DNA of 64,000 bases. Source: Allobosea sp. ASV33. GTDB lineage: Bacteria; Pseudomonadota; Alphaproteobacteria; Rhizobiales; Beijerinckiaceae. The position numbers were made by a program, and so were the translations under genes. The notes below the pieces were generated by a model. The model did not search any database. It saw only the letters and a list, made by a program, of their open reading frames with translations, and was not told where the DNA came from. Positions within the stretch are counted from its first letter, which is position 1; each line of letters opens with the position of its first letter. This document shows positions 19,602 through 27,718 of this stretch, one piece after another. The stretch spans positions 1 through 64,000 of the forward strand of contig NZ_JAELTI010000015.1 in assembly GCF_016428755.1 (NCBI RefSeq), written 5' to 3'.

Positions 19602-21191
19602 ATGTCGATCCGCCGTCGCACTGTCCTCAAGGGAGCCGGGGCGCTTGCCGCGACGGCCTTCATGGGCAACCGGGCCTTTTCTCAGGGGGCGGCGGGGACG
19701 CTGCGCTTCAACCCTTCGACGCCTTTGCCCTCGCTGGATCCGATCACGGCCACCAGCTACGTCATCCGCAACCACGGCTACCTGATCTACGACACGCTCT
19801 TCGCCACCGACGCGAATTTCCAGATCAAGCCGCAGATGGTCGAGGCCTGGGAAACCGCGCCGGACGGGTTGAGCTGGACCTTCCGTCTCCGCGACGGGCT
19901 CGCCTTCCATGACGAGACGCCGGTCCGCGCGCAGGACTGCATCGCCTCGATCGCCCGCTGGTCGAAGCGCGATGCCTTCGGCCAGACCTTCGCCACCTTC
20001 GTCGAGGCTTACGATGTCGTCGACCAGCGCAACTTCCGCATCCGCCTGAAGAAGCCGTTCCCGATGATGACGGCTGCGCTCGGCAAGCTGTCGTCGAACG
20101 TGCCCTTCATCATGCCGGAGCGCATCGCGCAGACCGACCACATGAAGAACATCACGGAGGCTGTCGGCTCCGGCCCGTGGCGCTTCATGGACAAGCAGTG
20201 GGTGCCCGGCCAGAACGCGATCTACGAGCGCTTCGCCAAATACAAGCCGCGCGAGGAGGCGCCCTCCTGGGCCGCCGGCGGCAAGGTCGCCCGGATCGAC
20301 CGCATCGAGTGGCTCGCCCTGACCGAGGCCGCGGCCGCCGCCGGCGCCCTGATGCAGGGAGAGCTCGACTGGTACGAGCAGCCGCCCGTCGACCTGATCC
20401 CGATGCTGAAGGGCAACAAGGACATCGTCATCGAGAACGTGCCGCTCGGCCTGTTCCTGCTGATGCGGTTCAACCAGCTGCAGCCGCCCTTCAACAATCC
20501 GGCGATCCGCCGGGCGGTGATGGCCGCGGTCAACCAGACCGACTACATGGAGGCCGTCGTCGGCGACAAGGCGTTCTACAGCGGCGCCAAGACCTTCTTC
20601 ACGCCGGGCTCGCCGATGTCGTCGGGAGCGGGCGGGGCTGCGGCCATGCCGGGCAATCTCGACAAGGCCAAGGCCATGCTCAAGGAGGCCGGCTACAAGG
20701 GCGAGAAGGTCGTCCTGCTCGCGCCGGCCGATCAGCCGATCGCCTATCAGCAGTGCATGATCACCGAGGATCTTTTCAAGAAGCTCGGCATCAATACCGA
20801 ACTGGTCGCGACTGACTGGGCGAGCTTCATCGGCCGCCGTTCCAATCGCGGCCTGCCGGACCAGGGCGGCTGGTCGGTGTTCCATACGCTGTGGTCCTGC
20901 GCCGATACGCTCAATCCTGCGCTACACCCGCTGATGCGGGCCAATGGCGGCTCGGCCTGGTTCGGCTGGCCCGAGGACGCCCGGATCGAAGAGCTCCGGG
21001 ACGCCTGGATCGCCACGCCGGAAGAGGCCAAGCAGAAGGAACTCGCGGCCAAGATCGAGGAGCGCGGCTTCGAGGTCGTTCCCTATGTTCCCTGCGGCCT
21101 CGTCCAGCAGCCGATGGCCTTCCGCCGGAACCTGAGCGGCATGGTGCTCGCGCCGGCGCAGTTCTTCTGGAACATGGAAAAGAAGGCCTGA
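19602..21191 (+). CDS. ABC transporter substrate-binding protein, family 5 (peptide/nickel type)
   Basis: 529 residues. Tat-like signal peptide (RRRTVLKGAGALAATAFMG, cleavage near AFSQG). SBP_bac_5 signature: LPSLDPITATSYV, YLIYDTLFATDANFQIKPQMVEAW and GLSWTFRLRDGLAFHDETPV. Mature protein is expected in the periplasm. No permease or ATPase gene is adjacent, so the transporter it serves is elsewhere. GGGAGA lies before the ATG. Ligand probably an oligopeptide or similar compound. Confidence 0.88.
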   Translation: MSIRRRTVLKGAGALAATAFMGNRAFSQGAAGTLRFNPSTPLPSLDPITATSYVIRNHGYLIYDTLFATDANFQIKPQMVEAWETAPDGLSWTFRLRDGLAFHDETPVRAQDCIASIARWSKRDAFGQTFATFVEAYDVVDQRNFRIRLKKPFPMMTAALGKLSSNVPFIMPERIAQTDHMKNITEAVGSGPWRFMDKQWVPGQNAIYERFAKYKPREEAPSWAAGGKVARIDRIEWLALTEAAAAAGALMQGELDWYEQPPVDLIPMLKGNKDIVIENVPLGLFLLMRFNQLQPPFNNPAIRRAVMAAVNQTDYMEAVVGDKAFYSGAKTFFTPGSPMSSGAGGAAAMPGNLDKAKAMLKEAGYKGEKVVLLAPADQPIAYQQCMITEDLFKKLGINTELVATDWASFIGRRSNRGLPDQGGWSVFHTLWSCADTLNPALHPLMRANGGSAWFGWPEDARIEELRDAWIATPEEAKQKELAAKIEERGFEVVPYVPCGLVQQPMAFRRNLSGMVLAPAQFFWNMEKKA

Positions 21192-24243: not shown

Positions 24244-24267
24244 GAAGCCACATTTCCATAAGCGCAG

Positions 24268-24363
24268 GTCATCCCGGACGCAGCGAAGCGGAGATCCGGG
24301 ATCCATGCCTGAACCTCGACCGGAAGCGCGCCGGCATGGATCCCGGGTCAAGCCCGGGATGAC
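24268..24363. repeat. Intergenic palindromic repeat, ATCCCGGG class
   Basis: GTCATCCCGG to CCCGGGATGAC with the GGCATGGATCCCGGG inner arm. Confidence 0.85.
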
Positions 24364-24519
24364 CCGCGTGGTTCCCGCGGAATATGGGCAGGCTTCAATA
24401 CCCCTTCGTCCACCGCGCAGCTTGAAATCGCGCAATGTCGCTCTTGCAGCGCGGCGGCTTGCGCGGTCGAGGCTGCGACCTCTACTGTGCCGGCCTTTCC
24501 ACCCTCACTGGGGACCGTC

Positions 24520-25071: not shown

Positions 25072-25098
25072 TCGAAGCAGCCACTGCGCTTGCATCAA

Positions 25099-25126
25099 GG
25101 CGTCGCCTCCGGGCGGCGCCTTTTCT
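25099..25126 (+). terminator. Intrinsic terminator of the FMN reductase gene
   Basis: 9-bp stem GGCGTCGCC / GGCGGCGCC (one G-T pair) around the tetraloop TCCG, then TTTTCT; 28 bp after the stop codon. Confidence 0.85.
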
Positions 25127-25178
25127 GTCTGGCATTGGGGAAGACGGGGTAGCCCGAAGGGAGCCGTCGCGCGCGGGC

Positions 25179-25212
25179 AAAAAAGAGCCGGCGTCCCCGA
25201 AGGGAGCCGGCT
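25179..25212 (-). terminator. Intrinsic terminator of the predicted sRNA
   Basis: On the minus strand AGCCGGCTCCC, loop TTCG, GGGACGCCGGCT with a single bulged C, then CTTTTTT. No protein gene on the minus strand ends here, so it most likely terminates a non-coding RNA. Confidence 0.78.
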
Positions 25213-25317
25213 TTGTAAGTTTGAAACATCTGGCAAAAGCCAAACATCTCAGAGGGGAACGGCTGAAACGAACTCAACGCCGGGAGGAGATTGCGGAGCC
25301 CGTTCCGAACAACCGTG
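25179..25317 (-). ncRNA. Predicted small RNA, AbcR/alpha-r15-like
   Basis: Minus-strand transcript of about 139 nt. A promoter lies just upstream (TTGCAA, 17 bp, GATATT). The body has two pyrimidine tracts that could pair with Shine-Dalgarno sequences: TCTCCTCCC (rc of 25283-25291) and GTTCCCCTCT (rc of 25250-25259). It ends in a strong terminator, AGCCGGC-TCCC-TTCG-GGGA-C-GCCGGCT followed by CTTTTTT. From memory, AbcR (alpha-r15) sRNAs of Sinorhizobium and Brucella lie next to the lsrB/vtlR regulator gene, as here. Sequence identity to AbcR could not be tested. Confidence 0.6.
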
Positions 25318-25322
25318 AATAC

Positions 25323-25356
25323 AATATCGGCCATGACCTGCCGTTTTGCAATGCAA
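25323..25356 (-). promoter_or_regulatory. Predicted sRNA promoter with overlapping LysR-type palindrome
   Basis: On the minus strand, TTGCAA (25351-25346) and GATATT (25328-25323) with a 17-bp spacer. The palindrome TTGCA-T-TGCAA (25356-25346) overlaps the -35 box and could bind the neighbouring LysR regulator. Confidence 0.45.
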
Positions 25357-25583
25357 CATATCTTGGGTCCGCCATGCGGCACATGCATGAACTAAGGGCA
25401 GATGGCGTGTATTTGAGCCTAAATGATTGAGAAATATGCGTTCGTTGCAGGATGGGGCCTGCGCGGGGAAGTTGCAGGCCTTTCCCAAATCCGATTTTCG
25501 TCCGCAGCTGAACAGTTTTCAGGCGAACAGTCCGATTTTGGCGCATGCGAGATGCCGGTCTGGTCACAAAATTGCCAGAATCG

Positions 25584-25605
25584 AAAAGGGCGCCGTGAGG
25601 CGCCC
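25584..25605 (-). terminator. Intrinsic terminator of the lsrB-like gene
   Basis: Minus strand GGGCGCC, loop TCAC, GGCGCCC, then TTTTCG; 26 bp after the regulator stop codon. Confidence 0.82.
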
Positions 25606-25630
25606 GATTCTTTATGCATATCTGGAGCGA

Positions 25631-26665: not shown

Positions 26666-27718
<1,053 letters not shown>

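Follow-up and report, generated by a model that had tools for sequence, protein, structure and literature searches.

AbcR function has been described for Sinorhizobium, Agrobacterium and Brucella (PMC8844928, PMC7486931, PMC3712013, PMC4211561), and in related bacteria of soil and plants such RNAs adjust nutrient uptake. In S. meliloti, AbcR1 and AbcR2 carry one anti-Shine-Dalgarno seed (aSD1, CUCCUCCC) in the loop of the 5' hairpin and another (aSD2, UUCCCCUC) between SL1 and SL2 (PMC8844928). LsrB binds the abcR1 promoter and AbcR1 is undetectable without LsrB; removal of the sequence GCAT-N3-TG-N3-T, located at -61 to -49, cut abcR1 expression more than 22-fold (PMC8844928). Nevertheless, AbcR2 is LsrB-independent, although it lies in tandem with AbcR1 beside lsrB (PMC8844928, PMC3712013). 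The gene order in Agrobacterium is trxB, vtlR and then the abcR genes (PMC7486931). Alpha-r15 members are described as always multi-copy in Rhizobiaceae and Brucellaceae, and an A/U-rich single strand before a U-tailed Rho-independent terminator is one of their features (PMC3712013). Among the literature matches listed, from a search that left subscription papers outside, there was no paper on an AbcR RNA in Bosea or neighbouring genera. The RNA predicted here from the window (the whole 64,000-nucleotide stretch of DNA analysed) is a new, single-copy member of the known AbcR family.

The RNA gene and its fold

On the minus strand, the hexamer TTGCAA (25351-25346) is followed after 17 bp by GATATT (25328-25323) and then by the segment 25317-25179, which holds two C-rich tracts, CTCCTCCC at 25289-25282 and GTTCCCCTCT at 25260-25251, and ends in a TTCG-loop hairpin and CTTTTTT. 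The promoter-like hexamers, C-rich tracts, hairpin and terminal T run named in the initial annotation are thus all present. The RNA of this segment folds into three stem-loops with an energy of -60.9 kcal/mol, compared with a mean of -40.4 kcal/mol for shuffled sequences (z -5.6; 0 of 200 shuffles as good). As in AbcR RNAs, AACUUACAA lies open 5' of the terminator hairpin, which is followed by CUUUUUU. The terminator, with its bulged stem, is absent from the list given by a pattern scan for terminators, and a generic sigma-70 scan found no promoters; the -35/-10 reading rests on conservation. A terminator-like hairpin (25605-25588) stands 3' of lysR, so that the sRNA looks like a unit of its own. 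The features of the locus are collected in Table 1.

Table 1. Features of the predicted sRNA locus in the window
Feature	Position	Strand	Basis
Predicted AbcR/ar15-type sRNA gene, ~139 nt	25179..25317	-	Rfam ar15 (25182-25314); held-out model R2 (25182-25328); genus conservation and covariation
Stem-loop 1 (5' hairpin)	25259..25316	-	Minimum-free-energy fold; helices 1 and 2 have 20 pairs, 99.6% of cells paired in 35 sequences
aSD1 seed CTCCTCCC, loop of stem-loop 1	25282..25289	-	Sequence; identical to S. meliloti aSD1 CUCCUCCC
aSD2 seed TTCCCCTC, linker, 7/8 bases open	25252..25259	-	Sequence and fold; identical to S. meliloti aSD2 UUCCCCUC
Stem-loop 2	25222..25251	-	Fold; 13 pairs, 100% of cells paired (35 sequences)
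Rho-independent-type terminator hairpin and U tail, TTCG loop, bulged stem	25179..25212	-	Sequence, fold, pair conservation
-10-like element GATATT	25323..25328	-	Sequence; genus alignment; ATAT in this position in many copies across the order
TTGCATTGCAA, overlapping the -35-like hexamer TTGCAA (25346-25351)	25346..25356	-	TGCATTGC invariant in 36/36 genus rows
Degenerate VtlR/LsrB box GCATGGCGGACCC, GCAT half-site kept, about -60 to -48	25365..25377	-	GCAT invariant in 36/36 rows
Terminator-like hairpin 3' of lysR, parting lysR from the sRNA unit	25588..25605	-	One of 3 found, 0.8 expected
vtlR/lsrB orthologue, LysR-type regulator, 306 aa	25631..26551	-	Pfam HTH_1 and LysR_substrate; best of 40 hits for the LysR beside the ar15 pair of genome G059
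trxB-like gene (pyridine nucleotide-disulphide oxidoreductase), conserved neighbour	26666..27706	-	Listed frame; true start may lie inside

A DNA search found the sRNA in 34 of 37 same-genus (Bosea-like) genomes and in none of 24 other-order genomes. It is missing from three small genus genomes (G026, G031, G034; 3.2-3.6 Mb, 93-96% complete), and the source genome (5.66 Mb) has one copy. Across 35 distinct genus sequences, CTCCTCCC and GTTCCCCTCTG are invariant and 99.7% of the 1531 cells of 44 pairs hold standard pairs, compared with 98.2% in shuffles and 34-48% in slid versions. Two-sided changes occur in 5 of the 44 pairs of the genus alignment A4 (22 cells; shuffles mean 4.9), and many pairs never vary, so that the support from covariation rests on few positions. 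Covariation was judged on A4 together with single folds of the order-wide copies, because A2, the MAFFT alignment of order-wide copies, yielded only 4 consensus pairs. A coding reading was rejected on the grounds of base pairing and of changes in loop length by numbers of bases not divisible by three.

Three Bosea-like genomes carry extra AbcR-like copies: one in G003, one in G007 and two in G029 (L036; L044; G007:C19:1049-1193; G029:C2:205326-205462). The copies of L036 and L044 have no LysR match nearby and keep the promoter motif TGCATTGCAAAA, and that of L044 adjoins an HTH gene and a Fic-like gene, both named from reading frames. This context suggests mobile copies.

Family assignment

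At the gathering threshold, Rfam gave no match at the sRNA, and a permissive search was therefore used. Rfam ar15 (RF02345) then matched the sRNA over its full length (model positions 1-112, 25182-25314) with E 2.4e-4 in the 559-base stretch searched and 30.4 bits, below the gathering score of 40. The check with the ar15 model that the initial annotation had proposed for 25072-25630 thus gave the full-length match, but at a score under the cut-off. None of the other permissive Rfam matches has an E better than 0.34, and that to Atu_C8 sits on the lysR terminator. With E 0.01 or better, ar15 matched 38 of 61 genomes, one of them above the cut-off, and none of 14 control genomes.

The held-out model R2 was built from 34 order-wide sequences with all Boseaceae left out. 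Its sole match in the 5.66-Mb source genome is the window sRNA, with E 3.8e-8, although Infernal E-values are rough owing to a short calibration. Together with the same seeds in the same places and the same synteny, this match supports the AbcR/alpha-r15 identity proposed from the first inspection. R2 matches 34 of 37 genus genomes (31 of these 34 with one copy, three with more) and 8 of 24 others; in G021, G023 and G027 the DNA search adds just pieces shorter than 40 nt. A further model, R1, is circular for the window sRNA since it contains the window's own sequence, and R2 is therefore the test quoted; R1 also matched 4 of 10 sampled genomes from other genera of the same family.

Among 16 order-wide loci carrying or matching the RNA, the ar15 cut-off was reached in three (Mycoplana L140, Hoeflea L128 and Pleomorphomonas L110), and automatic Rfam annotation may for this reason overlook many non-rhizobial AbcR members. 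The source genome has one copy and so departs from the multi-copy habit of alpha-r15 RNAs, which was not taken as defining because the published statement concerns two other bacterial families.

Both window seeds match aSD1 and aSD2 of S. meliloti AbcR1/2 letter for letter and in the same two places. When 46 order-wide copies were folded singly, at least 5 of 6 aSD1 bases were open in 42; at most 4 of 8 aSD2 bases were open in 17, and in one copy none was. By the script's pattern, aSD1 is absent from a Xanthobacter copy (L101). Three Microvirga copies (L075, L076, L089) read GTTCCCTCTGG, with an aSD2 tract one C shorter.

Neighbouring genes and distribution across the order

The reference for orthology was the LysR of genome G059 (locus L031), in place of the S. 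meliloti or Agrobacterium protein; this gene adjoins two strong ar15 genes (127 and 119 bits). Searched against the source genome (G000), it matched the window LysR with 379 bits and 55% identity, compared with 120 bits and 32% for the next of 40 hits, and the neighbour described earlier as lsrB/vtlR-like can accordingly be called an orthologue. The closest named relatives of the window LysR, among the best 80 of at least 585, are from Bosea (95-99%), which places the window in that genus or very close to it. As described for Agrobacterium (PMC7486931), the sRNA lies downstream of vtlR/lsrB, with trxB on the other side of the regulator gene; the trxB-like gene is on the far side of lysR in both the window and G059. 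In G055 and G060 (L035, L033) no LysR of more than 38% identity was found within 1.5 kb of the RNA, and linkage of lysR and RNA is thus common, not universal. Elsewhere in the window, two nested inverted repeats between genes at 24263-24368 (arms 24293-24309/24333-24349 and 24263-24277/24354-24368) resemble a dispersed intergenic repeat.

Out of at least 585 relatives found when public genomes were scanned by LysR alignment, the 80 best were kept as Hyphomicrobiales loci. The exact 11-nt seed motif GTTCCCCTCTG was present downstream of the LysR and on the same strand in 41 of the 80, at 130-734 nt past the LysR match, with five loci carrying it twice. Over both strands of all 80 loci (902 kb), 46 of 47 occurrences of the motif fell within 1.5 kb downstream of the LysR on the same strand. 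When R2 was applied to the other 39 loci, 11 more matched within 1.5 kb on the same strand with E 1e-4 or better (L075, L076, L089, L098, L099, L103, L106, L120, L121, L122, L131). Further R2 matches lie 2.2 kb away in L113 and on the opposite strand in L119 (E 5.9e-13) and L109 (E 2.7e-4). Intermediates between the rhizobial and the Bosea RNA were found in Chelatococcus, Salinarimonas, Kaistia, Pleomorphomonas and Stappia.

None of the 12 Methylobacterium/Methylorubrum loci (L077-L086, L093, L137; the flank of L085 is just 65 nt) matched R2 at E 0.1 or R1 at E 1. All 12 keep the VtlR-type gene, with no ar15-like match adjoining. About 55 nt past the lysR stop, L077 and L081 each have the end of a convergent open frame.

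The promoter region

Upstream of the sRNA, GCAT at 25377-25374 stands at about -60, 26 bases before the -35, with the same spacing as the exact box of L031. The second half of GCAT-N3-TG-N3-T is unmatched in the window sRNA promoter, and the exact box is absent from the window and from 8 of 8 Boseaceae loci. Across the order, an exact box stands upstream in 16 of 46 copies, compared with 50 of 5292 segments of equal length from both strands of the same loci, promoters included. The 36 genus rows in which GCAT and TGCATTGC are invariant include two copies without a nearby lysR match. Moreover, TGCATTGC is common to one Chelatococcus, one Salinarimonas and three Microvirga copies, and the first Chelatococcus copy of L072 carries both the exact box and TTGCATTGCAA. 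The longer promoter motif TGYTGCATTGCAAAA has one other site in the genome at up to 1 mismatch (L062), around which no AbcR-like sequence was seen by eye.

The initial annotation had proposed TTGCA-T-TGCAA at the -35 as the site through which the adjacent LysR protein controls the RNA. To judge from the alignments, the palindrome TTGCATTGCAA is real and conserved, but it is not the published VtlR box, which begins 26 bases 5' of the -35. The palindrome may serve as a further VtlR half-site or as core promoter.

Candidate targets

The source genome has 21 Peripla_BP_6 and 54 SBP_bac_5 matches above the cut-off. Two transporter binding-protein genes had been claimed for the window as possible targets, and one of them was verified, an SBP_bac_5 (PF00496) match at 19821-20891. 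The target test took in 21 of 22 PF13458, 30 of 54 PF00496 and 30 of 72 PF00106 matches, with start codons chosen by script, and compared 51 SBP starts with 30 short-chain-dehydrogenase starts as controls. Pairing of the seeds was not significantly better for the 51 SBP than for the 30 control starts (Mann-Whitney p 0.24 for aSD1 and 0.18 for aSD2), and controls made up 4 of the 15 best-pairing starts. Median aSD1/aSD2 energies were -16.3/-14.3 for PF13458, -13.6/-13.1 for PF00496 and -14.2/-12.4 for controls, and 16S anti-Shine-Dalgarno pairing was slightly better for SBP starts than for controls (p 0.04). Among 11 k-mers tested, AGGGGA (15/51 vs 2/30, p 0.013) and GGAGGA (7/51 vs 0/30, p 0.033) stood out, and neither survives correction. 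Since the pairing test was not significant, the transporter role of the window RNA is a putative one, carried over from relatives.

AGAGGGGAA before L188 and GGGAGGAGA before L152 are among the best single SBP sites, and both are partly conserved. For the L188 site, a whole-query match was obtained in only one other of 37 genomes, where AAGAGGGGA persists within a leader that has diverged; among the six longest matches aligned for the L152 site, four keep GGGAGGAG, one has GGGAGGA and one has neither. Conservation of these candidate sites is suggestive only.

Interpretation

The window sequence very probably encodes a single-copy, trans-acting AbcR (ar15) sRNA that is transcribed independently of the VtlR/LsrB gene on its 5' side, from its own promoter. 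The grounds are sequence and structural homology, conserved seeds, trxB-vtlR-sRNA synteny and conservation upstream, where a VtlR-like half-site lies. Control by VtlR has a rival explanation, in which the RNA is an AbcR homologue that has escaped the regulator in Bosea, the neighbouring gene reflects ancestral linkage and TTGCATTGCAA is the site of some other regulator or the core promoter. Such a loss would fit an exact box that is missing from the window and all eight Boseaceae loci, yet present at 16 of 46 copies order-wide, and has a parallel in S. meliloti AbcR2, LsrB-independent despite its place beside lsrB (PMC8844928, PMC3712013). It is nevertheless rather unlikely, given that GCAT at the box position and TGCATTGC hold in all 36 rows, even in the two copies with no lysR nearby, and that the exact box and TTGCATTGCAA stand together in the first Chelatococcus copy.

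That the RNA is an unrelated C-rich anti-Shine-Dalgarno sRNA, like AbcR by convergence, is highly improbable. The order of elements and the neighbour gene are the same, five genera supply intermediates and the held-out model matches, although C-rich loops do recur in other sRNA families (PMC3927594, PMC8844928), the stem sequences are unlike rhizobial ones and the Rfam score is under the cut-off. It would be equally surprising if there were no RNA gene, and the segment were a 3' UTR or a small protein-coding stretch: overlapping open frames are present and the sigma-70 scan is empty, but the terminator-like hairpin parts the RNA from lysR, indels do not come in threes and paired columns covary.

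If the RNA is, as preferred here, an AbcR under VtlR control, characterised relatives would lead one to expect that VtlR activates it and Hfq stabilises it. By pairing with ribosome-binding sites, its two C-rich single-stranded seeds would then block translation of mRNAs from uptake or metabolic genes, among them those for ABC-transporter binding proteins, and the regulator gene and RNA would form one module tuning nutrient uptake. A wider proposal, put forward tentatively and with some doubt, is that a trxB-vtlR-abcR module was ancestral to Hyphomicrobiales, that the single Boseaceae copy does the work of both AbcR1 and AbcR2, and that the VtlR operator was rebuilt from GCAT-N3-TG-N3-T as a pair of GCAT-type half-sites spaced by about 23 bp, the second over the -35; Methylobacterium would have lost the RNA beside vtlR and kept the regulator.

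The predicted gene would extend the nutrient-uptake sRNA of rhizobia and brucellae to Bosea, as a simple single-copy version of the VtlR-AbcR circuit. The survey of the 80 top-ranking loci, out of at least 585 relatives, extends AbcR to lineages in which the Rfam model stays under its cut-off, and Methylobacterium, with vtlR and no adjacent RNA, offers a natural contrast for the role of VtlR without AbcR.

Comparison with known systems

NfeR1 of S. meliloti is likewise an anti-Shine-Dalgarno sRNA, whose validated targets are mRNAs of periplasmic binding proteins (PMC8844928), but it has three identical motifs and 115 nt, and was set apart from the window RNA by description. Agrobacterium tumefaciens AbcR1 with VtlR shares the order trxB, vtlR, sRNA (PMC7486931); there, abcR1 and abcR2 form a pair, and expression and VtlR binding have been shown, whereas the window RNA is known from its sequence. 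S. meliloti AbcR1/AbcR2 have both seeds, their placement in 5' hairpin loop and linker, and the position beside lsrB in common with the window RNA (PMC8844928, PMC3712013). The S. meliloti genes are a tandem pair, unlike the single copy in the source genome, and of the S. meliloti LsrB box the window operator keeps only GCAT. Stem-loop 2 has 13 pairs in the window RNA, compared with 7-8 in the folded Hoeflea and Mycoplana copies, S. meliloti itself not having been folded.
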